A stretch of 64,000 nucleotides of DNA from an uncultured Balneola sp. (GTDB lineage: Bacteria; Bacteroidota; Rhodothermia; Balneolales; Balneolaceae). The stretch is taken from the NCBI GenBank assembly GCA_902529115.1, contig CABZVB010000005.1, positions 1-64,000 of the forward strand. Reading direction: 5' to 3'. The number at the start of each line of letters is the position of its first letter. Position 1 is the stretch's first letter. The position numbers were made by a program, and so were the translations under genes. Of this stretch, positions 1 through 14,656 are shown one piece after another. Under the pieces are notes generated by a model that was not told where the DNA came from, searched no databases, and saw only the letters and a program-made list of their open reading frames with translations.

Positions 1-840
1 ACCCTAGGGATACGTGACTATATGGTCAAAAGTGGGCTACCAATAAAAGTATGCTTGGGCCTTAGTGGAGGTATAGACTCGGCTTTAGTGGCTGCATTAG
101 CTGTAGAGGCATTGGGTGCTGAGGCCGTAATTGGTTTGACCATGCCATCTGAATATTCTTCGAAGGGAAGTGTGGCCGATTCAATGCAACTAGCTAGGTC
201 CTTGAGCATAGAGTGTCATCAGATTCCCATTAAAGACATGGTAAAAGCCTTTGATCGTAGTATGGCCGAATATTTTAAAGGTACTGATTTTGGACTTGCT
301 GAGGAAAATATTCAAAGTAGGATAAGAGGATCTATTTTAATGGCATGGGCTAATAAATTTGGAGCGGTAGTATTAAACACGGGCAACAAATCCGAATATG
401 CCGTTGGGTACTGCACACTATATGGTGATATGAATGGTGCACTAGGGGTCATTTCGGACCTATATAAATCAGAAGTCTATGCACTCGCAGAGTGGATGAA
501 TGAGTACTATTATGAACGAGAAGTCATACCAATAGCAAGTTTAACTAAAGCACCCTCAGCAGAATTACGTCACGATCAAAAAGACTCCGATAGTTTGCCA
601 GATTATTTTATTTTAGATTCAATTTTAAGAGCGTATTTGGAGCACGAAAAAGAAGTATTAGAGATTACTAATATGGGATTTGATGTAGGATTAGTGAAGG
701 ATATTCTAAATAGGGTGGACATGAGTGAATTTAAGCGTTATCAGTCAGCACCTGGATTAAAAATTTCAAAAATTGCCTTTGGTGTAGGCCGTAGAAGACC
801 ACTAGTTCAGAAGTGGAAGCATGATCTAAATGACCATTAA
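1..840 (+). CDS. nadE: NAD+ synthase, C-terminal part (5' end outside window)
   Basis: ATP-dependent amidation of deamido-NAD to NAD+, the last step of NAD synthesis in the cytoplasm. The reading frame is open from base 1 (TLGIRDYMVK...), so the gene starts upstream of the window; the ATG at 22 is internal. Visible hallmarks are the PP-loop LSGGIDSAL (about residue 22), the NTGNKSE segment, KAPSAEL and the C-terminal GVGRRRP. The missing upstream part could be the nitrilase-type glutaminase domain of the glutamine-dependent form, but this cannot be seen. The last about 70 codons recur, diverged, at 8217-8432, so this gene is part of a rearrangement. Identification is sure; the form (NH3 or glutamine) is not. 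Confidence 0.95.
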   Translation, partial: TLGIRDYMVKSGLPIKVCLGLSGGIDSALVAALAVEALGAEAVIGLTMPSEYSSKGSVADSMQLARSLSIECHQIPIKDMVKAFDRSMAEYFKGTDFGLAEENIQSRIRGSILMAWANKFGAVVLNTGNKSEYAVGYCTLYGDMNGALGVISDLYKSEVYALAEWMNEYYYEREVIPIASLTKAPSAELRHDQKDSDSLPDYFILDSILRAYLEHEKEVLEITNMGFDVGLVKDILNRVDMSEFKRYQSAPGLKISKIAFGVGRRRPLVQKWKHDLNDH

Positions 841-858
841 AAAAGGATTCAATTACCT

Positions 859-919
859 GGGTAACAATTCAATAACATTCCGTTAATGACACGGTTACTA
901 TTGGGTTACAATTGAATAA
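859..919 (+). promoter_or_regulatory. Five 11-bp periodic repeats, Pho-box-like
   Basis: T(A/T)A-type half-sites begin exactly 11 bases apart at 862 (TAACA), 873 (TAACA), 884 (TAATG), 895 (TTACT) and 906 (TTACA). The two outer units sit in 17-base copies (859-875 and 903-919) that differ at two positions. Direct repeats with one-helical-turn spacing are the layout bound by PhoB/PhoP response regulators, and TTAACA-like units are the Bacillus PhoP form. The array lies 75 bases before a secreted 5'-nucleotidase, which fits phosphate-starvation control. The periodicity is seen; the regulator is inferred. Confidence 0.6.
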
Positions 920-993
920 TATCAATATAATTATACTCTAATATAGAGTGTTTAGTTTAGGGTTTTAAATGTTAAAATTTTAAAACCACCAAA

Positions 994-3900
994 ATGAAAA
1001 GCACTACTAAGTTTGTATTACTTCTAGGAGTACTCCTACTGCCATTACACAATATCAAGGCTCAACAGTTAATGAGTCATGATAACAATGGACCTGAAAT
1101 AACATCCTTCAGAATAGGAATATATTCTACTGGATTGTATGATGAAGGCGCAGCTGAAATCTCAGCCTATGATCCTGGTTCAATGCATTTATTTTTCACA
1201 AATGCTGAAGAAAATACAATTGAGGTATTAGACATTTCTGATCCTTCTAATCCAACCCAATTCACAGCAATTGATATGTCAGTATACGGTGACGGGGTAA
1301 ATAGTGTGGCGGTTTATGATGGTTTAGTTGCTGTTGCTGTAGAAGCTGCAGAAGTTGGGGTAAGAGGCAGTGTTGAATTTTTTAATGCGGCCGATGCAAC
1401 ACACTTAAAAACAGTTGAAGGAGGTTTTTTACCAGATGCAGTTACTTTTACGCCAAATGGCGACTATCTAATAGTATCAAATGAAGGCGAACCAAACGAT
1501 GGTTATACAATAGATCCTGTCGGTAGTGTATCAATCATAAAAATTTCTGATTATTCAGTAGCTGAAGCCACTTTTGATTCTTTCAATGCTCAAAAGGAAG
1601 CCCTAATAGCGTCTGGAGTTTGGATTACTGGTCCGGGTGCTTCCGTTGCTCAGGATTTGGAGCCCGAATATGCCACTTCACCTGATGGTGTAACGGCATA
1701 TGTTGTCTTACAAGAAAATAACGCACTTGCCGTTGTAGACATAGCCTCTGCGACTGTTACTTCGATTTTACCATTGGGAACCAAAGATCATAGTTTATTT
1801 ATAAACGGTCTTGACGCTTCTAACCAAGACAAAAGAATTAACATTCGTGAATGGCCAGTAAAAGGATTATATATGCCCGATGCTATTGCAAGTGCAACAA
1901 TTGGTGGTAAAAACTACTTATTTACGGCTAATGAAGGCGATGCAAGGGAATACGAAGACGGAGATTTTTTGTACATAGATGAAGCAAGAGTCAAGGATCT
2001 TAAATTAGATTCTACCATATTTACCGAGCCTGATTTGCAATCAAGTGAGAAATTAGGAAGACTAAAAGTAAAAACAGCTTTACCTGATACAAATGCCGCT
2101 GGTGAATACAAAACTTTGTATTCATTTGGCGCTAGATCATTTTCAATTTGGGATACAGATGGTAATCTTGTGTTTGATAGTGGTAATGATTTCGAAAGAA
2201 TCATCGCAGTGAGATATCCAAATGATTTTAATTCTACTAATTCTGATAATGACAGTTTTGACAACCGCTCTGATGACAAAGGTCCTGAACCAGAGGCTGT
2301 TACAGTTATTCATTTAGCAGGTGAAACATATGCACTTGTTGGATTAGAGAGTATGGGAGGGGTTATGGTGTATAATGTGACTGATCCTGAAAATGCGAAA
2401 TTTGTAGAATATTTTAATGATAGAAATTATACTGAACTTAACTTCCAAGAAGACTTCATTAAAGATACGCTCAGAACAGATTCAGAGATAGCATCAATAC
2501 TTAAAAATACCGTTGCTTCTGGACCAGAAAGTATTACATTCATACCACAAGGTGCTAGTCCATTGGCAGAACCATTAGCCGTGGTAAGTAATGAAGTAAC
2601 CGGGACAGTAACGATTAATCAAATTAATTTTAAGTCAAAGGCTGCACCATTATTCTTTTCTGAATATGCAGAGGGTTCTAGTAACAATAAATATCTAGAA
2701 ATTTATAATCCAACCTCTGATACGGTTAGTTTATTAGGTTATGCACTCGCGAATACAACTAATGGTGCAAATGTACCTGGAAAATATGATTTCTGGAATG
2801 AGGTGTTTTCGGCTTCCCATAAGATTGCACCTGGTGGTGTATTTGTTGTAGCACATCCTTCTGCTGATGGATTTATAAATGATACAACTAGCATTCTTTC
2901 TATTGCAGATACAACTCATCAATATCTAAGTAATGGTGATGATGGTTATGCACTGGTCTATGGAACTGAAGATAATTTTGAGATATTGGATATGTTAGGT
3001 GACTGGTTCGCTGATCCAGGTAGTGGTTGGGATGTTGGAGACGTAACTAATGGAACAAAAGATCACACATTAGTCAGAAAATTAAATATTCAAAGAGGTA
3101 ACGCAGGGCCCAGAGCATCATTTGGTGGCGCCGCTTATACCGAATGGATAGTTAAAGATAAAGACGACTGGTCAGGGCTTGGGCAACATGCACAAAATAC
3201 AATTATTACAATTCTCCACAATAATGACGGTGAATCCCAACTAATTAATGCCGGTGAAGGGTTGGAAGAATTTGGTGGAGTTGCTCGTTTCGCTAGTGCA
3301 GTAGAAAAAGCTAGATTTGATGCAAGACAAAAAGGCAATCTTCCTATCCTATTGTCATCAGGAGATAATTTCTTAGCGGGACCTGAATTCAATGCGAGTT
3401 TGAGCTCAGGTACATTTTTCGACGCAAAAGCTATCGGACTTTTAGATTATGAAGCACTTGCTTTAGGTAATCATGAATTTGATGCGGGACCAGTTGTGCT
3501 CTCAGAATTTATTAATTCTACGGGTGGTAACAATCCCACATTTTTAAGCGCTAATCTAGACTTTACAAATGTACCTTCACTTTCCTCATTGGAGTCACAA
3601 GGAAGAATTGCTACGAGCGTTGTTTATGAAGAAAAAACGGGTCGAAAAAGAAAATTAGGAATAATTGGAGCAACAACCGAGAATCTGCCTTTTATATCCT
3701 CACCTGGTGAAACCATTGTTAAAAATGTACTTCCTTCTGTACAAGCTGAAGTTGATGCTCTTACAGCTGATGGTGTGAACCATATTATATTGATAAGTCA
3801 TTTACAAGGAATTGAAGAAGATTCTTTACTTGCAACAAAACTATCGGGTGTGGATGTGATAATAGCCGGTGGTGGAGATGATTTATTGGCTAATTCAGGG

Positions 3901-6900
3901 GCACTTCTTGTTCCTGGTGACGAGATAAGATCTGCCTATCCGATGGTTGTTGCCGATGCAGATGGTATTAATATTCCATTAGTAACTGTGAAAGGACAGT
4001 ATACATACCTTGGCCGCTTGGACGTAGAATTTGACACAAATGGCGATGTGGTTTCATTTAATGGTAATCCAATAAGAATTGCCAGTGTCACTCAGGAAGG
4101 TGGTTTCCCAGATCATCCAGAAATGATGAACTCCGTGGTACTCCCTGTCAAGGCGTATGTAGACGATCTAGATAAAATTGAAATTGCAAGTAGCACGGTC
4201 CCACTACAAGCTGACAGAGAGCAAATAAGATCTAGAGAAACTAATATGGGTAACCTAGTAACCGATGCTTACATTGCTCTTGCATTGGATGGAGCAGAAG
4301 ACTTTGGTCTAGATATAAATGAAGATCGACTCGTGGCTTTGGCAAATGGAGGAGGTATTAGGGCAACTATCCCTCCTGGTTCTATAACAGCAAAGCAAAC
4401 CTTTGATGTGTTACCATTCCCTAATAATGTAGCATATATGCCGGATGTTTCACCTGAAATGTTGCATGAGGTTATGGAAAATGCGGTATCTCGTATAGAT
4501 CCATCAACAGGTATAGCTACAGGTGGTGGAACAGGTAGATTTGCGCAAATTTCTGGATTCAGAGTAGAGTTTGATCCTAATAATACCGCCATTGTCTATA
4601 ATGATGACGATGCCCAAACTATATCTGTTCGAGGAACAAGAGTTCAAACTATTACCCTCAATGACGGGACACCCATTGTTGAAGATGGAGAAGTTGTAAG
4701 TGGAGCTCCAAATGTTGACTTATTAACAGCAGATTATACTGCAGGTGGTGGCGATCAGTACCCATTTAGAGGTCAACCATTTTCCACTATTGGTTTAACC
4801 TACCAGCAAGCACTACAAATATATTTAGAAGAGTATGTTGGTGAAGTAAATGCCATTAACTATCCAGTTAGAGGAGAGGGAAGAATCGTTAATCTTGCAA
4901 TGGATCTTAAACAAGGTTTTACGCTTACGGTTCTCCATAATAATGATGGTGAATCGCAACTAATAAATGCTGGTGGTTCATTACAAGACTTTGGCGGTGT
5001 TGCAAGATTTGCTTCTGTTGTTCATCGCGAAAGACATGACGCGATGAAACAAGGGTTTGATCCAATATTACTCTCAGCGGGTGATAATTTTCTTCCAAGT
5101 CCGGAGTTCGATGCAAGTTTAGAGTCGGGAACTTTCTACGATGCAAAAGCAATAAATCTTTTACGTTATGATGCAGTTGCAATAGGTAATCATGATTTTG
5201 ATATGGGTCCTGTAGTTCTTGCTGAATTTATTGAACAAGCCAATGAAGATAATCCATTTACTGAGCCTAGGCTTATACCATTTTTAAGTGCTAATCTTGA
5301 CTACACAGGATCACCTGAGTTATCAAGATTAATAGAGAAAAATATGGTAGCATCTAGTTCCATTGTATTTACAGGTCAAAATACAATAGGTGTAATTGGA
5401 GCCACCACTGAAAATTTACCTTTCATTTCAAGCCCAGGAGCTGTAACAGTTAAGGATGTGGCAGAATCAGTCTCAGCAGAAGTTGAAAAACTTGAGGCTG
5501 CAGGTGTGGATGCAATTATATTAGTTAGCCATTTACAGGGTATACAAGAAGATTCTTTGTTGGCAACACAGTTAAAAGGTATTGATATATATATTGCCGG
5601 TGGCGGTGATGACTTATTAGCTAATACGGATGATCTATTGTTACCAGGTGATGTTGCAAAATCAGCCTACCCAATGGTAGTTACCGATATGGATGGTATT
5701 GAGGTACCTATTGTATCTACAAAAGGTGAATATGGATATCTAGGTAGGTTAGATGTAACTTTTGATGAACTTGGAAATGTCATTTCTTTTGATGGTGGTC
5801 AAAAGCGAGTTGCGTCAGAATTCTATCCAGATGGTGTAACTGAAGACCCATTATTTTTAGAAGAGATAGTTGATCCAGTTGCAGAATTTGTTCAAGACCT
5901 TGCTACTTCACAAGTTGGGGTATCAGAGGTATTTTTATTTGGCTCCAAAGATGATATACGGTCAAGAGAGACAAATTTAGGTAATCTAATAGCAGACGGT
6001 TTTAGAGCTACTGCTATAGAACGTGGAGCTGGTTTTGGCCTAGAATTAGATCCCAACAGAACTCTTGCGGTAACTAATGGAGGCGGTATCAGAGCGTCTA
6101 TTGCAGCTGGTAAAATAACTGCGCAGGATGTATCAAATGTGCTGCCATTTTCCAATAATATTGCAGTATTTCAAGATCTAGGTCCAGAAGTGCTTCAAGA
6201 AATAATGGAGAATGCTGTTTCACGAATAGACCCAGAGACAGGGCAACGATCAGGTGGTGGGACAGGTAGATTTGCACAAATCTCTGGTTTTAAAGTCGAA
6301 TTTGATCCATCTAAAACTGCAATTGAATATAACTCAGATGACGAACAAAGTATTTCAGTTGCTGGAAGTAGAGTGTTATCTATAACACTTAATGATGGTA
6401 CCGAAATAGTGAAAAATGGTTTTGTTGTAGATGGAGCTCCATCTGTGAACATCATTACAAATGACTATATAGCAAAGGGTGGTGATCAGTACCCATATAG
6501 GGGCACTAGCTTCCAAACTATTGGTTTAACATATACACAAGCTCTTGGTTTTTATATCACTGAGAATCTTGGTGGTGTTGTATTTGCAAGTCAGTATCCA
6601 GTAGAAGGTGAAGGTAGAATAGTTGATGTACTAAACACTTTTGAGAATCAAAAACCAGTTGTAAATCTCCCTGTTGAAATGAGTATGCTTGAAGATCAAC
6701 CAATGAGTTTTGATGCTAATAAAGTTATGAAAGATGATCGTGCTCTAGATGCTAATCATATGAGTATGACGTTTAAAGGTTCTTTCAGCATGGGTTATGA
6801 CATTAATGGCACTATGGTAACTTTAAACCCAGATACTAATGCATATGGTCAATTAAAAATGATACTCACTGTTACCGATGATCATGGTGAAACCGCATCG

Positions 6901-7494
6901 GATTCAACAATAATTACTGTTATTCCGGTCAATGATGCTCCTACAGCTGCATTTGAATTTGAGCAAGGGGGTAATGATGATGGGAATAATGTTGTAACAT
7001 TTACTAGCACTTCAAATGATGATGCAGATCCAAATGGATTTTTAGTGTCTTACTTTTGGAACTTTGGAGATGGAACAACAAGTACGGAAGCAAACCCAAC
7101 AAAAGAGTATACTTTTAGCCAAGAATTCGAAGTTGAGTTAACAGTTACAGATAATCAAGGTGCAACTAGTACTAAGAAAAGTCCTGTAAATGTTACTGTA
7201 GTTACTTCATCTGAATTGGAAAACTTACCTACTGAATTTAGTTTAAATCAGAATTATCCAAACCCATTTAACCCAACAACGGTAATTAATTATGATATAC
7301 CTGAAGCAACTAATGTTGTTCTTACAGTGTATAATATGCTTGGGCAAAAAATGACAACCTTGGTTAATGAAAATAAATCAGCAGGAAGGTATAGTATTAA
7401 TTTTGATGCAACATTATTCTCAAGTGGTGTATACATTTATAGACTTGAAGCTGGTCAATTTGTAAGTACAAAAAAGATGATGTTGATTAAATAA
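994..7494 (+). CDS. Giant secreted protein with two 5'-nucleotidase modules and T9SS tail
   Basis: A 2166-residue exported protein, probably a surface or secreted phosphatase for organic phosphate. Order: signal peptide (1-23, ending IKAQ); choice-of-anchor-I-like beta-propeller region (about 30-545); lamin-tail-like domain (about 550-730); first metallophosphatase/5'-nucleotidase module (about 737-1305); second module (about 1310-1880); cadherin-like segment; PKD domain (about 1980-2068); sorting tail from about 2084 with NYPNPFNPTT and a final basic KKMMLIK. Each nucleotidase module has LHNNDGES, a GNHE/DFD motif (H827, H1400), an AGGGDDLL motif, and the C-domain signatures RSRETN and NGGGIRA. 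The usual histidines of NDxHG and GHSH are replaced in both copies. The gene stands alone, behind a Pho-box-like array and before a strong terminator. The nucleotidase fold is clear; activity and substrate are inferred. Confidence 0.88.
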   Translation: MKSTTKFVLLLGVLLLPLHNIKAQQLMSHDNNGPEITSFRIGIYSTGLYDEGAAEISAYDPGSMHLFFTNAEENTIEVLDISDPSNPTQFTAIDMSVYGDGVNSVAVYDGLVAVAVEAAEVGVRGSVEFFNAADATHLKTVEGGFLPDAVTFTPNGDYLIVSNEGEPNDGYTIDPVGSVSIIKISDYSVAEATFDSFNAQKEALIASGVWITGPGASVAQDLEPEYATSPDGVTAYVVLQENNALAVVDIASATVTSILPLGTKDHSLFINGLDASNQDKRINIREWPVKGLYMPDAIASATIGGKNYLFTANEGDAREYEDGDFLYIDEARVKDLKLDSTIFTEPDLQSSEKLGRLKVKTALPDTNAAGEYKTLYSFGARSFSIWDTDGNLVFDSGNDFERIIAVRYPNDFNSTNSDNDSFDNRSDDKGPEPEAVTVIHLAGETYALVGLESMGGVMVYNVTDPENAKFVEYFNDRNYTELNFQEDFIKDTLRTDSEIASILKNTVASGPESITFIPQGASPLAEPLAVVSNEVTGTVTINQINFKSKAAPLFFSEYAEGSSNNKYLEIYNPTSDTVSLLGYALANTTNGANVPGKYDFWNEVFSASHKIAPGGVFVVAHPSADGFINDTTSILSIADTTHQYLSNGDDGYALVYGTEDNFEILDMLGDWFADPGSGWDVGDVTNGTKDHTLVRKLNIQRGNAGPRASFGGAAYTEWIVKDKDDWSGLGQHAQNTIITILHNNDGESQLINAGEGLEEFGGVARFASAVEKARFDARQKGNLPILLSSGDNFLAGPEFNASLSSGTFFDAKAIGLLDYEALALGNHEFDAGPVVLSEFINSTGGNNPTFLSANLDFTNVPSLSSLESQGRIATSVVYEEKTGRKRKLGIIGATTENLPFISSPGETIVKNVLPSVQAEVDALTADGVNHIILISHLQGIEEDSLLATKLSGVDVIIAGGGDDLLANSGALLVPGDEIRSAYPMVVADADGINIPLVTVKGQYTYLGRLDVEFDTNGDVVSFNGNPIRIASVTQEGGFPDHPEMMNSVVLPVKAYVDDLDKIEIASSTVPLQADREQIRSRETNMGNLVTDAYIALALDGAEDFGLDINEDRLVALANGGGIRATIPPGSITAKQTFDVLPFPNNVAYMPDVSPEMLHEVMENAVSRIDPSTGIATGGGTGRFAQISGFRVEFDPNNTAIVYNDDDAQTISVRGTRVQTITLNDGTPIVEDGEVVSGAPNVDLLTADYTAGGGDQYPFRGQPFSTIGLTYQQALQIYLEEYVGEVNAINYPVRGEGRIVNLAMDLKQGFTLTVLHNNDGESQLINAGGSLQDFGGVARFASVVHRERHDAMKQGFDPILLSAGDNFLPSPEFDASLESGTFYDAKAINLLRYDAVAIGNHDFDMGPVVLAEFIEQANEDNPFTEPRLIPFLSANLDYTGSPELSRLIEKNMVASSSIVFTGQNTIGVIGATTENLPFISSPGAVTVKDVAESVSAEVEKLEAAGVDAIILVSHLQGIQEDSLLATQLKGIDIYIAGGGDDLLANTDDLLLPGDVAKSAYPMVVTDMDGIEVPIVSTKGEYGYLGRLDVTFDELGNVISFDGGQKRVASEFYPDGVTEDPLFLEEIVDPVAEFVQDLATSQVGVSEVFLFGSKDDIRSRETNLGNLIADGFRATAIERGAGFGLELDPNRTLAVTNGGGIRASIAAGKITAQDVSNVLPFSNNIAVFQDLGPEVLQEIMENAVSRIDPETGQRSGGGTGRFAQISGFKVEFDPSKTAIEYNSDDEQSISVAGSRVLSITLNDGTEIVKNGFVVDGAPSVNIITNDYIAKGGDQYPYRGTSFQTIGLTYTQALGFYITENLGGVVFASQYPVEGEGRIVDVLNTFENQKPVVNLPVEMSMLEDQPMSFDANKVMKDDRALDANHMSMTFKGSFSMGYDINGTMVTLNPDTNAYGQLKMILTVTDDHGETASDSTIITVIPVNDAPTAAFEFEQGGNDDGNNVVTFTSTSNDDADPNGFLVSYFWNFGDGTTSTEANPTKEYTFSQEFEVELTVTDNQGATSTKKSPVNVTVVTSSELENLPTEFSLNQNYPNPFNPTTVINYDIPEATNVVLTVYNMLGQKMTTLVNENKSAGRYSINFDATLFSSGVYIYRLEAGQFVSTKKMMLIK

Positions 7495-7510
7495 GATTTA
7501 ATTTTGTAGT

Positions 7511-7544
7511 AAAGGCTTGTATGATTTAATACAAGCCTTTTTTT
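7511..7544 (+). terminator. Intrinsic terminator of the nucleotidase gene
   Basis: Perfect 12-bp stem AAAGGCTTGTAT/ATACAAGCCTTT with a six-base loop, followed by a T run, starting 17 bases after the stop codon. It isolates the phosphatase gene from the pseudogene that follows. Confidence 0.9.
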
Positions 7545-7577
7545 ATTTTTGAAGTAATTTTAGTTTTATGTTAGAAT

Positions 7578-8216
7578 ATGAAGCTAAAATTATTATTTCT
7601 ATTTTTTATTGGTTCGTATCAATATATCATTGCACAAGATGCACCTCCAACGGTAGAGTACCAAGAGATAAAAACCAAATATCTCCCTTATCATAATCCC
7701 ATGCAGGCTTGGTCTTTGTCCTCTACAGACATTGCAGCTGGTGACAACAGAATTAATTCCGATGGAGTTACAACTGGACAGTTTTGAGCGGGATATGATG
7801 CTTCACATCGCTAACATATATGGAACTCATGTACAGGCATTAAAGGAACAGGTAAACAAAGAGCCAGTAGAAGCAGAACGTCTAATTAACGAATCATTGG
7901 CGGCTTCGCAGGACTTGTTAGTTGAGTATCCAGAAATTAGAAGCAATACACGCTTTGCTCAACTCTCTAGAGCGGTTGTTGGTGAGTATCGAAATTTCTA
8001 CGGGATTAGCGAAGAAGAAGATCAGGCGCAGGGTGAAATATTTGCCATCCAAGAAGATTTTCCAGAAAATGAAAACACCTTGGCAGAGGACTTTAATTTT
8101 CCAAAAGATACCGAAACCTCCAAAACAACGTTGCCGTTACTGCAAAATGCACAAGTAAATCGACATCTTGTTTATTACACGCTTAGAAGGCCAGATGTGA
8201 TAGAAAAATGGAGAAG
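7578..8216 (+). pseudogene. Truncated, frameshifted copy of the MltD-like transglycosylase gene
   Basis: Matches the N-terminal about 245 codons of the intact transglycosylase gene at 8499-10568. It keeps a signal peptide of its own (MKLKLLFLFF...IIAQ) and then the shared stretch APPTVEYQEIKTKYLPY. A net one-base length change between about 7705 and 7745 moves the reading frame: the first frame stops at 7787 and the homology goes on in another frame from TTELIP. The match ends abruptly at EKWR, before the catalytic SLT domain, where the sequence becomes a nadE fragment. Most differences from the intact gene are at third codon positions, so this copy diverged while still functional, probably in another strain, and broke later. 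It cannot make an active enzyme. Confidence 0.85.
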
Positions 8217-8432
8217 GGATATATCGAAGAGGCCAAAGAATTTTCAGAACTAGTTCAGATGGGTTTTGATGCGGAATTAGTGCAAGATATTCTCAGAAAA
8301 GTGGATTTGAGTGAATTTAAACGATATCAATCGGCACCAGGATTAAAAGTCTCAAACGTAGCTTTTGGGGTAGGGCGGAGGCGACCAATTGTTCAAAAGT
8401 GGACAGGCTCCAGGTTGGGTCGTCTTTTCTAA
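8217..8432 (+). pseudogene. Orphan C-terminal fragment of nadE
   Basis: Codes for about 71 residues matching the end of NAD synthase: MGFDAELVQDIL, EFKRYQSAPGLK and FGVGRRRPIVQKW pair with the end of the nadE gene at the window start, after which the tails differ. The homology begins near 8217, directly after the truncated transglycosylase homology, so the two fragments meet at about 8213-8217. By eye the nucleotide identity to the other nadE copy is only about three quarters, mostly silent changes. A 74-residue frame from the ATG at 8208 could be translated but would be a domainless stub. It is best read as the old nadE end left behind when foreign DNA was inserted. Confidence 0.85.
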
Positions 8433-8498
8433 GAATTTTATTATATTATAGTAATACGTATACAAAACGTTACAATATCATCTAATTATTTGCACATC

Positions 8499-10568
8499 AT
8501 GCGTCTATATTCCCCGGATATACATTCAACAGATATGCATGGAATGTTGAAACCTATTTTATTCAAGGCAACATTCAATACACTAGCTATATCAATCATT
8601 ATACCGGTGTTCATACTATTATGGGGTATTACACCCATTCTTTTTGCTCAAGAAGCACCTCCAACAGTTGAATACCAAGAGATAAAAACCAAATATCTGC
8701 CATATAACAACCCTATGCAAGCTTGGGCTTCCTCCACTGGCCCTAGCGTGAATGACACTACAGATTTGATACCCATAGAGCTGCAATTGGACAGTTTCGA
8801 GCGTGATATGATGCTTCGAATTGCCAATATATATGGGACTCATGTCCAGGCCCTAAAAGCACAAGTAAATAATGAGCCAGTGGAGGCAGAACGTTTGATT
8901 AACGAATCGTTAACAGCTTCACAGGAGTTACTGGATGAGTACCCTGAAATCAGGAGTAATACTCGATTTATGCAACTTTCTAGAGCTGTAGTTGCTGAGT
9001 ATAGGACCTTTTATGGGATTAGTGAAGAAGAAGATCAGGCTCAAGGAGAAATATTTGCAATTCAAGAAGACTTTTTAGAGGATGAAAATACCCTAGCGGA
9101 GGATTTTAATTTTCCTAAAGATACCGAAAGCTTTAAAACAACCGTGCCTCTTCTGCAAAATACGCAGGTCAATCGTCACCTTGTTTACTACACGCTTCGT
9201 AGGCCGGATGTAATGGAAAAATGGAGAGAGAGGGCAGAGGTGTACAAACCCATGATGCTTGAGATTTTCAGAGAGGAAAGATTGCCCGAAGAATTAGTTT
9301 ATTTAGCTTTTATTGAAAGTGGTCTTAATCCTACTGCTAGAAGTTGGGCATCGGCAGTGGGAATGTGGCAGTTTATTTCAGCTACAGCCCGAATTTATGG
9401 AATTGAAATAAATTGGTGGGTAGACGAGCGAAGAGACCCTGAAAAAGCTACCAGAGCCGCTGCTCGACACCTTAAAGATTTATACAATGTATGGGGTGAT
9501 TGGCATCTAGCTATGGCCAATTACAATATTAGTCCACGTGGTTTAAATAGAGCCATTACCCGTGCAGGTGGAGTGAAAGATTATTGGGCTGCCTATCCTT
9601 ATCTTCCCCGTGAGACCAGAGGTTACGTGCCGGGTTTTATTGCCACAACCATGATTAATTTGAGCCCAGAGGACTTTGGCTTTCAAACTAACTATGAACA
9701 AGAACCATATTCCTATGAGACTGTGGAGGTTGATGGCCTTGTTTCTTTAGAGCTTCTCGCAGAAGCTATGGGCTTATCAACAGAAGTCCTAAAAGAATAT
9801 AATCCAGAACTCTTACGGTGGGCAACCCCACCTGGTTCGAAGTATTCCCTAAAAGTACCCGTTGGTAAAGCGAATTATTTATTAGCTATCTATGACAGTT
9901 TACCTCTAGAAACTCAAAATCAAAGCATCACCATGCATACTGTACGAAGAGGGGAATCTATCGGCCTGATTGCACGTAAATATGGTACAACGGTTAGTGG
10001 TATTTATGCAAGTAATGATAATCTCTCTAATATTATTTATCCGGGGCAGGTGATTGCGGTACCATTACCATCAGGATCTATTAATCAACTATCCGTTAAC
10101 CGTCCCAGTAATCAACGAAGTGGAACAGTGACTACCCGATCGAGTTCATCGAGCAGTTCTATTCCACCCAACTCGGTCAAGATATTATATAAAGTAAAAA
10201 CAGGTGATACAATTGGACATATCGCCGAATGGCATGACGTTCGTGCATGGGAAATAAGAAGCTGGAATGGAATAGGGAATACTATTCGGGTAGGACAAAA
10301 TTTAACCTTGTATGTAGCAAATAATCGTGAACAATATTACAAAACTATAAATAGTCTTAGCTTTAACGATAAACAAGATTTAGAACGTCGCCAAAAAAGG
10401 GGTGAAAATATTTTCGGGGGACAAGATATCTTTACTTATGTTGTCAAGCGAAATGATACCCTATCCGCGATTGCTCGTAATTTTAGAATGTCAACAACTC
10501 AATTACGTGAACTTAATGATTTATCAGGGTCCACTATATATATCGGACAAGTACTTAAGGTTCGATAA
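8499..10568 (+). CDS. MltD-like membrane/periplasmic lytic transglycosylase with three LysM domains
   Basis: Cleaves the glycan strands of peptidoglycan in the periplasm. After a hydrophobic signal segment (...WGITPILFAQ) there is a conserved N-terminal region, then the SLT/GH23 domain with catalytic Glu in FIESGLNP (E276 counted from the TTG at 8490) and the AVGMWQFI and MANYN motifs, then three LysM repeats (about residues 482-527, 565-612 and 648-692). The start is uncertain: TTG 8490, ATG 8499, ATG 8535 or ATG 8544; the later ones place the signal peptide nearer the N terminus. A broken copy of its first third lies just upstream. Two bases separate its stop from the protease gene that follows, so the two are probably co-transcribed. 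Confidence 0.93.
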   Translation: MRLYSPDIHSTDMHGMLKPILFKATFNTLAISIIIPVFILLWGITPILFAQEAPPTVEYQEIKTKYLPYNNPMQAWASSTGPSVNDTTDLIPIELQLDSFERDMMLRIANIYGTHVQALKAQVNNEPVEAERLINESLTASQELLDEYPEIRSNTRFMQLSRAVVAEYRTFYGISEEEDQAQGEIFAIQEDFLEDENTLAEDFNFPKDTESFKTTVPLLQNTQVNRHLVYYTLRRPDVMEKWRERAEVYKPMMLEIFREERLPEELVYLAFIESGLNPTARSWASAVGMWQFISATARIYGIEINWWVDERRDPEKATRAAARHLKDLYNVWGDWHLAMANYNISPRGLNRAITRAGGVKDYWAAYPYLPRETRGYVPGFIATTMINLSPEDFGFQTNYEQEPYSYETVEVDGLVSLELLAEAMGLSTEVLKEYNPELLRWATPPGSKYSLKVPVGKANYLLAIYDSLPLETQNQSITMHTVRRGESIGLIARKYGTTVSGIYASNDNLSNIIYPGQVIAVPLPSGSINQLSVNRPSNQRSGTVTTRSSSSSSSIPPNSVKILYKVKTGDTIGHIAEWHDVRAWEIRSWNGIGNTIRVGQNLTLYVANNREQYYKTINSLSFNDKQDLERRQKRGENIFGGQDIFTYVVKRNDTLSAIARNFRMSTTQLRELNDLSGSTIYIGQVLKVR

Positions 10569-10570
10569 TA

Positions 10571-12304
10571 ATGGCCAAAATACCATTAAATCCGTTACGA
10601 AATGTTCGTAAAAAGTTATTTTTTGGATTTATTATTCTCCTAGCTATCTCGTCTACAGCTTACCAACAAAAAGATCTTTTTTTCCGAATAAAACAAAGTT
10701 TAGAAATTTTTTCTGAGGCATTTAGTTTAATTGTTGTTGAGTTTGTTGATAAAATAGATCCTCTTGAGCTAATGGGGGTAGGACTAAACGCGATGTTCGA
10801 AAGTTTAGATCCTTATACTAATTATTTCGATGCAAGTAGTAATGAGCAAGCGGAAATTTTAAATCGAAGTAATTTTTCTAGTATAGGAATTCAGGTTGAT
10901 AATAAAGAAAACAGAGCGGTTGTGGTTCGAGTGATTGATGGGAGTCCAGCCCAAAGATCAGGTATTCGTACGGGTGACATTATCCAATCGATTGACGGTC
11001 TATCAACTGAAACTCTTGAACCAGAGGAAATAGAAAATTTGTTAATGGGTGAAATTGGTTCCAAGGTTACCCTTACCGTAGAAACGCAGAACACAACGAT
11101 AGACCAGCTACAACTATCTCGCGCTAAATTTGATCCGAAGAGCTTGGGTTATGCGGCCATCCTTAATCTAAATGGACGACCCATCATTGAGTTGAATACG
11201 GATACCAAAGAATTAGAACCCCTGGATTCCAGCATAACTGAACAGAAACAGGGTGTAGCGTATCTTCAATTAAATGAATTTAGCCTAGGTGTGAATGCTG
11301 AATTTAGGCAAGCTTTAGAAGCTATAATTAAGAAATCTGAGCTACATGGACTCATCCTAGATTTAAGGGGAAACCCTGGTGGACTTTTACAGGAATCAAT
11401 TAAGATGTTAGATTTTATGGTCGAACCAGGCATCACTGTGGTTGAAACGATAGGCCGTTTAGATGAATATAATACTCGATACATAACCAGAGAAGTTCCT
11501 AGGTACAATGGTCCTCTAGTCGTATTAATTGACCAAGGAAGTGCGAGTGCAAGCGAAATTTTATCGGGGGTTGTGCAGGATCTAGATAGAGGAGTTGTAG
11601 TAGGGGAGCGTAGTTTCGGAAAAGGTTTAGTTCAATTAGTTAAACCTTTACCATACAACAACTCAATGAAATATACTATATCAAGGTATTATGTTCCTTC
11701 TGGAAGGAGTATTCAAAGTCTAGAGTATACTCATGATACAAATAACACAGCCTTTCAGCAAGCAGATGATAATGTATATAAAACCAAAAATGGTAGAGTG
11801 GTACGTGGAGGGAGGGGCATTGAGCCTGATCTTCAGACTGATACAGAAATACTCAGTTCATTCCAATTGGAGCTGCTACGGTTGGGATTAGTTAGTGAAT
11901 TTATTCAGCAATTAGAGTTACCCATAACAGCCATAATTGATGATGAGCTTATAAGAGTCATAACTAAACAATTTATGGATAATTTTGACCCCACTCGTTT
12001 GCAGATATGGAGTGAGATGTTGTCATTGACGGACTCTCTAGGTTTTTCTTTAAATGATAAGAATGCATTGAATGCCAATACAAAGGAGTCTATATTACAA
12101 ATTAATGATTATATCAATGAAATGGCTAAGGTTAACTTAATAAAAAAAGCTGGAGAAGTAGAGGTAGTATTAGAGTTGGAACTGATACGGTTTTATAAAG
12201 GAAACAAGGCCTGGAAAAGAGCTAGTCTAGCCATTGATCCAGCAGTGATTTCTGGAATACAGCTTTTGGACGAATTGCAAGATTATTATTCAATAGTACA
12301 ATAA
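10571..12304 (+). CDS. S41 C-terminal processing peptidase with PDZ domain
   Basis: Periplasmic, inner-membrane-anchored serine protease of the CtpA/Prc family, which trims exported proteins and often controls cell-wall hydrolases. One N-terminal hydrophobic segment (about residues 14-28) is followed by a PDZ domain (about 95-180) and the S41 core. The core carries LDLRGNPGG, the catalytic serine inside GSASASE (324-329) and the catalytic lysine K351 in SFGKGLVQ. Its 577 residues fit the family; the last about 150 are a helical extension. It lies directly behind a lytic transglycosylase, which fits a protease-hydrolase pairing, but a substrate relation is only inferred. Confidence 0.93.
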   Translation: MAKIPLNPLRNVRKKLFFGFIILLAISSTAYQQKDLFFRIKQSLEIFSEAFSLIVVEFVDKIDPLELMGVGLNAMFESLDPYTNYFDASSNEQAEILNRSNFSSIGIQVDNKENRAVVVRVIDGSPAQRSGIRTGDIIQSIDGLSTETLEPEEIENLLMGEIGSKVTLTVETQNTTIDQLQLSRAKFDPKSLGYAAILNLNGRPIIELNTDTKELEPLDSSITEQKQGVAYLQLNEFSLGVNAEFRQALEAIIKKSELHGLILDLRGNPGGLLQESIKMLDFMVEPGITVVETIGRLDEYNTRYITREVPRYNGPLVVLIDQGSASASEILSGVVQDLDRGVVVGERSFGKGLVQLVKPLPYNNSMKYTISRYYVPSGRSIQSLEYTHDTNNTAFQQADDNVYKTKNGRVVRGGRGIEPDLQTDTEILSSFQLELLRLGLVSEFIQQLELPITAIIDDELIRVITKQFMDNFDPTRLQIWSEMLSLTDSLGFSLNDKNALNANTKESILQINDYINEMAKVNLIKKAGEVEVVLELELIRFYKGNKAWKRASLAIDPAVISGIQLLDELQDYYSIVQ

Positions 12305-12307
12305 GTT

Positions 12308-13162
12308 ATGGCTGCGAAAGCCGATTTGCATATTCATACCACCTATTCTGATGGAAAAAAAAGCCCATTAGAGGTTCTTAATTTGGCAGTGTCTAAAGGG
12401 TTAAAGGCTATTTCAATAACAGACCATGATACCGTTAAAGGTTATTTAAATGGAGTAGAAATATTAAAATCGGAACAATTACCAATTGAACTAATAACAG
12501 GTGCAGAATTTACGGCTTCCTTTAAAGGCAAAGATATTCATTTGTTAGGTTATTATTTTGATCCTTATCATAAAGAATTATCGGAGTACTTAACAACATG
12601 TTCGGTACAACGGAGATGTCGAATGAAATCTATGATTGAATGGCTCAATAAAAAAAATATTGAGGTTGATTTTCAAGAAGTTTTAGCTATATCCAAACAA
12701 GCCACTTTAACTCGTCCTCATTTAGCTAGGTTATTAGTAGAAAAAAACTATGTAGCCAATCAGATAGAGGCCTTTCAAAGATACTTGGTTATAGCTCATG
12801 AGGAAACACACCAGCCCTATTTCTTAGATGCCAGTTCCCTTATAGCATTGGTGCGAAGAGCGGGAGGAGCCATTATATTGGCACACCCAGGGAAGTTATT
12901 TACTCAGCCAGAGCTCGAAGAAATTCGAATGCTAGGTATAGACGGGGTTGAATGTATTCATCCTAGTCATACATATCAGCAACATAATTACTTTGTAAGA
13001 TGGGCTAAAAAAAATCATCTACTTCAAACAGGTGGAAGTGATTATCATGGACATCTAGATTTTGGTTATACTCCCATCGGTACGGTCACGACTTCCTATA
13101 ATAACGTAATAAAGATGAAGGCAATGACCCAACAAAGAAGAGCTTTAATTCCTAATAATTAA
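12308..13162 (+). CDS. PHP-domain phosphoesterase (YciV/RNase AM-like)
   Basis: Cytoplasmic metal-dependent phosphoesterase. The PHP motifs are all there: DLHIHTTYSDG at the N terminus, ITDHDTVKG, GAEFT, ILAHPGK and GGSDYHG near the C terminus. At 284 residues it matches the stand-alone PHP proteins related to E. coli YciV (a 5'-3' exoribonuclease acting on short RNAs and nucleoside 3',5'-bisphosphates). The start ATG is four bases after the protease stop, so both are probably on one transcript. Family is certain; the exact substrate cannot be told from sequence. Confidence 0.9.
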   Translation: MAAKADLHIHTTYSDGKKSPLEVLNLAVSKGLKAISITDHDTVKGYLNGVEILKSEQLPIELITGAEFTASFKGKDIHLLGYYFDPYHKELSEYLTTCSVQRRCRMKSMIEWLNKKNIEVDFQEVLAISKQATLTRPHLARLLVEKNYVANQIEAFQRYLVIAHEETHQPYFLDASSLIALVRRAGGAIILAHPGKLFTQPELEEIRMLGIDGVECIHPSHTYQQHNYFVRWAKKNHLLQTGGSDYHGHLDFGYTPIGTVTTSYNNVIKMKAMTQQRRALIPNN

Positions 13163-13170
13163 TATAAATC

Positions 13171-13650
13171 ATGAGAAAAAAACTAGGGATTTTCAAGGAT
13201 TTAACAAATACAGAAATTGAAGATGCTACCGTGGGGATTGTGGTTTCAAGGTGGAATTCTATGATTACTGAAGCAATGTTAGAAGGTGCTTTATCTACTC
13301 TAAAAGCTAATGGTGTAAATAAAGATTCTATTACGATAGTACGTTGTCCAGGGAGTTATGAGATTCCACTTACCGCACAGTGGTTATTAGAAACTAAACG
13401 CTATGACGGTGTTATTGCTCTAGGTGTAGTAATTCGAGGTGGCACTCCACATTTCAAATATGTATGTAATGCAGTAAATCGAGGAGTAATTGATTTAAAT
13501 CTGCGTTTTTCAACTCCCGTTGCATTTGGCGTACTTACAACAGATAATGTACAACAGGCTTTAGATAGAGTAGGAGATAAAGGAAATAAAGGGTCAGAGG
13601 CAGCCCTAGCCCTTTTAGAGATGATAGCAATACGACAAAATCTAAAGTAG
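13171..13650 (+). CDS. ribH: 6,7-dimethyl-8-ribityllumazine synthase
   Basis: Penultimate step of riboflavin synthesis: condenses the 5-amino-6-ribitylaminouracil precursor with dihydroxybutanone phosphate. Recognisable parts are VVSRWNS near the N terminus, CPGSYEIPL, the active-site loop VIRGGTPHF with the catalytic histidine, and GNKGSEAA. Length (159 residues) is typical. It follows the PHP gene after 8 bases and is not with other rib genes, as is common in this phylum. Confidence 0.96.
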   Translation: MRKKLGIFKDLTNTEIEDATVGIVVSRWNSMITEAMLEGALSTLKANGVNKDSITIVRCPGSYEIPLTAQWLLETKRYDGVIALGVVIRGGTPHFKYVCNAVNRGVIDLNLRFSTPVAFGVLTTDNVQQALDRVGDKGNKGSEAALALLEMIAIRQNLK

Positions 13651-13753
13651 CTTATGACGTCAAAATATTTTTTTATTAAGATGGTTTAAGAAATAGCTTT
13701 CAAAAATAGTTGCCTAATATAGCTTGTTAGAAATAAGCAGTTTAGCTTAAAAC

Positions 13754-13794
13754 AAAAGCACTTTATAATGAGTATAATTAAGGCGCTTTTTTCT
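13754..13794 (+). terminator. Probable terminator after ribH
   Basis: An imperfect stem (AAAAGCACTT against AAGGCGCTTTT, one bulge and one mismatch) around an AT-rich loop, followed by TTTTTTCTT, in the 202-base gap between ribH and uppS. The rest of that gap is AT-rich with no recognisable gene. The stem is weaker than the other terminators in the window. Confidence 0.5.
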
Positions 13795-13852
13795 TGAATA
13801 AGCACTAATAAAGCTCTAATTTAATAAATTAAAGAAAATCAACAACTATCCC

Positions 13853-14656
13853 TTGAAAGAGCTAAGTCTCACTAAAATTAAACAGACTCAGGAAGACAAG
13901 AATCGGCAGAAAGAGTTAACGGATTCAGGTGTCATACCAGTGCATATCGCCATCATTATGGATGGTAATGGGCGATGGGCTAAAAGTAAAGGGAATATTA
14001 GGCTTTTTGGACACAAGGTAGGTGTAGATTCTGTTAGAGATATCACTGAGGCGTGTGCTCAGGTCGGGGTTAAATTTCTCACCTTATATGCTTTTTCGAC
14101 AGAAAACTGGGGTAGACCAAATGCTGAAGTTCGAGGGCTAATGCGATTGCTTGTATCCTCTCTTAGGAAGGAGGCGGATAACCTACATCGAAACAATATT
14201 CGTTTGGTCACCATTGGCCAGATGGACCGATTTCCTGACGATTGTATTAAAGAATTAGATGAGGCTGTATCATTAACACAGGATAATACAGGATTAGAGC
14301 TATGTCTTGCACTTAGTTATTCAGGTCGATGGGATATCACTGAGGCTGTGAAAAAAATTGCTAAACATGTAGAAAAAGGTAGATTAGCTCCTAATTTAAT
14401 TAATGACCAAATGATTGGTGATCATCTTTCTACCGCTAGTATACCGGATCCTGATTTAATTATTAGAACTAGCGGTGAATATCGTATTAGTAACTTTTTA
14501 TTATGGCAATTGGCGTATTCTGAATTGTATATATCTGAATTATATTGGCCTGATTTTAGACGTAACGAATTGTATGAAGCTATTCATTCGTTCCAAAAAA
14601 GAGATCGAAGATTTGGGAAAGTGTACAAAAATAAAAAAGACGAAATAAGCGACTAG
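13853..14656 (+). CDS. uppS: Isoprenyl transferase (undecaprenyl diphosphate synthase)
   Basis: Makes the C55 lipid carrier for cell-wall synthesis by cis-adding isopentenyl units. Contains IAIIMDGNGRWAK with the catalytic Asp, FGHKVG, TLYAFSTENW, SYSGRWDI, RTSGEYRISNFLLWQ and the ELYWPDF end motif. The start is a TTG: no ATG occurs in frame before the active-site motif, and the 20-residue leader before the core is the usual length. It opens a cluster with bamA and three skp-like genes, a common order in Bacteroidota. Confidence 0.95.
   Translation: MKELSLTKIKQTQEDKNRQKELTDSGVIPVHIAIIMDGNGRWAKSKGNIRLFGHKVGVDSVRDITEACAQVGVKFLTLYAFSTENWGRPNAEVRGLMRLLVSSLRKEADNLHRNNIRLVTIGQMDRFPDDCIKELDEAVSLTQDNTGLELCLALSYSGRWDITEAVKKIAKHVEKGRLAPNLINDQMIGDHLSTASIPDPDLIIRTSGEYRISNFLLWQLAYSELYISELYWPDFRRNELYEAIHSFQKRDRRFGKVYKNKKDEISD

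Follow-up and report, generated by a model that had tools for sequence, protein, structure and literature searches.

Homology-facilitated illegitimate recombination (HFIR) during transformation is known from S. pneumoniae, Acinetobacter baylyi and Pseudomonas stutzeri, with a usual microhomology of 3 to 10 bp (PMC3240628). HFIR has also been described for E. coli conjugation (Amarir-Bouhram 2011), where three of four joints had no homology and the fourth shared a single nucleotide (PMC3240628). In Vibrio cholerae, displacement arrays of type VI secretion system (T6SS) effector-immunity genes have been explained by HFIR (PMC5361080, PMC9711863). Here, we describe a recombination scar between nadE and an mltD-like gene in an uncultured Balneola sp., which is a fresh example of this already known type of event. 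The scar was probably left by an HFIR-type import of congener DNA, in which the right join was illegitimate and the left join presumably homologous. Like the V. cholerae arrays, it is a natural locus with the incoming unit upstream of the displaced native 3' end; the remnants there are useful immunity genes, whereas those of the present scar consist of a nadE tail and a broken front of mltD.

The stretch of DNA that was analysed (the window) comprises the first 64 kb of a 123-kb contig (C5), with contig base 1 being window base 1. The genome (G000) is a draft of 1.97 Mb in 43 contigs, 87.6% complete and with a contamination estimate of 0.04%; the scar is known from this one draft metagenome-type assembly. 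Relatives were Balneolaceae metagenome assemblies, the closest to G000 being G007 (98% complete). The nadE-mltD locus was compared in six congeners (G007, G001, G005, G004, G002, and G008), and G003 and G006 were left out of this comparison because the whole stretch is missing from their drafts.

Gene order and the right join

The locus consists of nadE (cut by the contig start), a gene for a large secreted 5'-nucleotidase, the front of an mltD gene, the end of nadE, and an intact mltD. The coordinates agree with the order that an earlier note on this DNA had claimed, and the parts are as follows.

1 to 840, forward strand: 3' half of nadE with the NAD synthetase domain, imported allele (PF02540 match; dS; contig start)
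994 to 7494, forward strand: imported gene, ORF intact, most likely for a secreted nucleotidase (Pfam; absent from the sister G007)
7578 to 8213, forward strand: donor mltD front, truncated at the join and frameshifted (dS to congeners; frameshift)
8213 to 8214, no strand: illegitimate join of donor mltD TGGAGA to host nadE AGGGATATATC (both parents in congeners; BLAST to G007)
8214 to 8432, forward strand: native nadE 3' end, a displaced remnant (183/192 nt identity and dS 0.11 to G007)
8490 to 10568, forward strand: native gene, intact, for an mltD-like lytic transglycosylase that has LysM repeats (SLT and LysM domains; 97% amino acid identity and dS 0.18 to G007)
10571 to 13650, forward strand: native collinear flank with carboxy-terminal protease (ctp), PHP-family protein, and ribH (order as in G007, G001, G005, G004, and G008)

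Both partial genes resemble their counterparts in the window far above chance, with 79% identity over 300 nt between the mltD front and the intact mltD and 73% over 184 nt between the nadE tail and the longer nadE. A 2-bp deletion at ∼7746, followed by a stop at ∼7787, makes a pseudogene of the mltD front. The product of the 994-7494 ORF is predicted by Pfam to contain choice-of-anchor I, LTD (lamin-tail), two 5'-nucleotidase modules, PKD, and a T9SS sorting tail, which makes a secreted nucleotidase, scavenging phosphate, its most likely function. The phosphatase of the earlier note is thus corrected to a secreted protein of 2,166 amino acids with two 5'-nucleotidase modules.

At the right join, the scar reads ...GAAAAATGGAGA up to the break and AGGGATATATCGAAG... 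beyond it; the corresponding native nadE sequence (G007) is ATTCTAAAGGGATATATCGAAG, and mltD in the G001/G005/G004 group has GAAAAATGGAGAGAAAGGGC or GAAAAATGGAGAGAGAGGGC. The exact joint lies at 8213/8214, inside the range of about 8213-8217 given in the earlier note, and 1 nt is common to both parents there, so that, judged from the parental sequences, the join of mltD front to nadE end is illegitimate, as had been claimed. If the donor was like G001/G005, A(AA)GGG, 3 nt from the joint, is also common to both parents, and joining may have gone through a microhomology of 4 to 6 nt near the joint and then a 3-bp loss. Host DNA was probably lost beside the joint: the part of native nadE that precedes the equivalent of position 628 is missing from the contig and no second nadE was found in the assembly, which makes a deletion of native nadE next to the joint probable at the 87.6% completeness of the assembly.

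It is unlikely that the joint is an artefact of assembly or strain mixture, in which two strain versions were stitched together at 8213. The fragmentation of the draft and the start of the contig inside nadE, whose N-terminal half is missing, hint at an unresolved region; however, the two sides share 1 to 6 nt at the joint, which is too little for overlap-based stitching, the frameshift in the mltD front is unexpected in an intact strain version, and the contamination estimate is 0.04%.

Native and foreign sides of the locus

BLAST aligned window positions 8214-34439 to G007 without a break (26 kb at 92%), starting at the first base of the nadE tail, while the homologous pieces on the left side reached 80% (nadE, 5-817) and 79% (mltD front, 7630-8214). 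When the same columns were compared with G007, the native nadE tail matched at 183 of 192 nt and the imported nadE at 135 (Fisher P = 3e-11), and the native mltD matched at 449 of 468 nt and the mltD front at 377 (P = 8e-14). Synonymous divergence from G007 was low on the right side (dS 0.11 for the nadE tail, 0.18 for mltD, 0.28 for ctp, 0.27 for the PHP gene, and 0.14 for ribH) and high for the imported nadE (1.14) and the mltD front (2.1). The imported nadE had dS values of 0.80 to 0.86 to G001, G004, and G005, lowest for G004 and G001 (0.80 to 0.81), and the mltD front had values of 0.46 to G004, 0.65 to G005, and 0.76 to G001, being saturated against the native mltD; of the two mltD copies, the front is the one nearer to G004 and G005. 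In the mltD tree, native mltD and G007 form a 100/100 clade with the mltD front outside, and a topology that pairs the G000 copies as sisters was rejected (AU P = 1.1e-5). Since the right side is G007-like and the left pieces, at about 80%, lean to other congeners, we regard the nadE tail as native and the longer nadE, the nucleotidase gene, and the mltD front as imported. This answers which nadE copy goes with the host, a check that the earlier note had proposed: the tail at 8214-8432 is native, and the copy at the window start is foreign.

The dN and dS values were 0.09 and 0.81 for the imported nadE against G001 and 0.06 and 0.46 for the mltD front against G004. With dN/dS ratios of 0.11 to 0.13 for both pieces against relatives, most of the divergence arose in working genes, in line with the earlier observation that the duplicates differ mainly at silent sites; by these ratios, both pieces were under purifying selection before transfer.

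In all six congeners with the locus, nadE is directly followed by mltD with nothing between them, and ctp, the PHP-family gene, and ribH come next in the five whose contig reaches that far. A search of 92 family genomes found no example of the donor order nadE-nucleotidase-mltD. Nucleotidase homologues were present in 12 of the 92 genomes and lay between nadE and mltD in none of the neighbourhoods read; where they are near the locus (G001, G005, G012, and G084), the nucleotidase gene precedes nadE and is encoded by the other strand. The window's nucleotidase is nearer to those of other genera (about 61%, G084/G058) than to those of G001/G005 (about 50%). A BLAST search of plasmids with mltD yielded distant matches only.

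Two side observations concern these neighbourhoods. In G001, G005, G084, and G012, the homologous large nucleotidase gene and a conserved gene in front of nadE are divergently oriented (L040, L041, L133, and L146), and the folE-nucleotidase-nadE neighbourhood is long-lived, though variable. The G004 mltD (L044:5747-8149) gave a two-part match, with ∼100 extra codons near query residue 540, in a single open frame of 826 codons.

The earlier note had favored import over tandem duplication, and the rejected sister topology and the empty sites in the relatives uphold that preference. An old tandem duplication within the lineage, followed by nucleotidase insertion and partial loss of one nadE copy and one mltD copy, is improbable. 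A tree joining the insert copies with native G000 and G007 was not rejected (AU P = 0.127), and by the tree alone a duplication older than the G000-G007 split would be conceivable; however, there is no trace of a second copy in G007 or the other congeners, so that clean losses would have had to happen independently, and the imported nadE leans over its first ∼600 nt to the G001/G004 clade as the mltD front does to G004/G005. We rejected tandem duplication on the grounds that the copies are not sisters and the relatives are all empty.

A single crossover of a circular molecule (a plasmid or circularised fragment) carrying nadE', the nucleotidase gene, and the mltD front would make 8213 the circle's own junction. 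Most of the unexpected products in the E. coli conjugation experiments were such duplications (PMC3240628), but in the window nadE is native from the first base past the joint, where some donor nadE would be expected for any crossover more than a few bases from the junction. We consider this course of events very improbable and rejected it for the lack of donor nadE past the joint.

The nadE mosaic and the left end of the import

The homologous left join had been placed inside nadE. This was not borne out: no switch to native sequence was found anywhere in nadE 1-817, the N-terminal half of nadE is absent from the assembly, and the left join thus lies to the left of the contig start, possibly to the left of nadE. 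A break was detected in the imported nadE at ∼606 (max-chi-square; the observed value was reached in 0 of 200 permutations). Up to this position, nadE differs by about 12% from G001/G004, and from ∼606 to 817, it differs by about 31% from every congener; the break separates two non-native parts, with 1-606 having a dS of ∼1.1 to G007. A replaced nadE end may thus have been present in the donor already, along with the nucleotidase gene. The last residues of the imported nadE product are KHDLNDH, where the products of G007, G001, G005, and G004 end in TGFRLGRxF.

A site-specific integrative element that entered the nadE 3' end, supplied a replacement tail (606-840), and displaced the native one (8214-8432) would give a similar architecture of complete gene, cargo, and displaced 3' end, and the change in nadE character at ∼606 is near the equivalent of the native-tail start (628); it is nevertheless extremely improbable and was rejected, as no integrase or recombinase ORF is listed in 841-8213 and no direct repeats were found at the two boundaries where they were looked for, and, further, nadE 1-606 is non-native and the segment at the joint is the front of mltD, a chromosomal neighbour.

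Contig C23 represents the upstream synteny. As far as the ftsH end it is 92% identical to G007; this part is followed by a permease gene (dS 1.8), then a TonB receptor gene that is present in G001 and not in the G007 stretch, and then the contig end. Since C23 is native up to the ftsH end and diverged beyond it, the import could start anywhere between ftsH and nadE. The ftsH gene itself (L127, C23, reverse orientation, 12274-14421) is a mosaic against G007, with dS mostly 0.4 to 1.1 for codons 1-360 and 0.05 to 0.28 for codons 360-650, which suggests a further recombination tract in G000 or G007.

In an HFIR-type import, the donor would be another, unsampled member of the genus, contributing a piece with nadE, the nucleotidase gene, and the mltD front to a recipient that carried plain nadE-mltD. 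An illegitimate join at 8213/8214 would have linked the right end of the fragment, ∼0.6 kb into donor mltD, with the middle of the recipient nadE 3' part, so that the native nadE tail and the intact native mltD remained. For the left end, homologous recombination within nadE or further upstream is presumed, with loss of the corresponding native nadE, and the result would have the product geometry of HFIR.

Route of entry

ComEC and DprA gave no profile match in G000 or G007, and both were matched in G001 and G005. The comEC region was read against collinear G001 DNA (G000 C1:82337-83181 [L153] and G007 C6:148983-149825 [L152] against L144:7886-10897). The gene is deleted at common endpoints (G000 C1:83156/83181 and G007 C6:149797/149825), and the last ∼160 bp of comEC are left; the comEC loss was thereby checked by synteny, and the absence of DprA rests on the profile search. 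The common endpoints indicate that the comEC loss most likely predates the G000-G007 split, and the absence of the import from G007 indicates that the import most likely postdates it. Judged from these gene contents, the competence machinery seems to have been lost in the G000/G007 sub-clade. Ku was not found in a search of five congeners.

These findings weaken the earlier suggestion that the import occurred during DNA uptake. Of the HFIR reading in the earlier note, the import, the illegitimate right join, the empty sites, and the native tail stand; the homologous left join is presumed, and uptake by transformation is doubtful. The scar resembles HFIR in transformation in its illegitimate join at one end, the loss of host DNA from the presumed anchor to the joint, and the partial neighbour left behind. 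It differs in that the presumed homologous end is beyond the contig, the imported piece is at least 8.2 kb rather than about 1 kb, the recipient lineage is without comEC, and the exact joint has 1 nt of microhomology, below the usual 3 to 10 bp, which would speak against an HFIR import of this kind. ComEC-dependent transformation is unlikely as the entry route; the DNA more likely came in by conjugation, by transduction, or in vesicles. The joints of 0 to 1 nt in E. coli conjugation HFIR fit the 1-nt joint better than those of transformation, and competence is not needed there; that case, however, is a laboratory plasmid system in which such events are very rare (about 3.5e-10).

HFIR scars from nature in which both parental sides can be told apart seem to be rarely documented, the described cases considered here being Vibrio secretion loci. 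The present scar shows how a gene for a secreted nucleotidase can be newly gained along with a replacement nadE allele, in a lineage apparently unable to take up DNA via the usual ComEC route. The loss of comEC before the sister split, followed by the gain of a congener segment of at least 8 kb through one-sided illegitimate joining, might tentatively be read as a sign of transformation-independent chromosomal transfer and Ku-independent end joining in these Balneolaceae.
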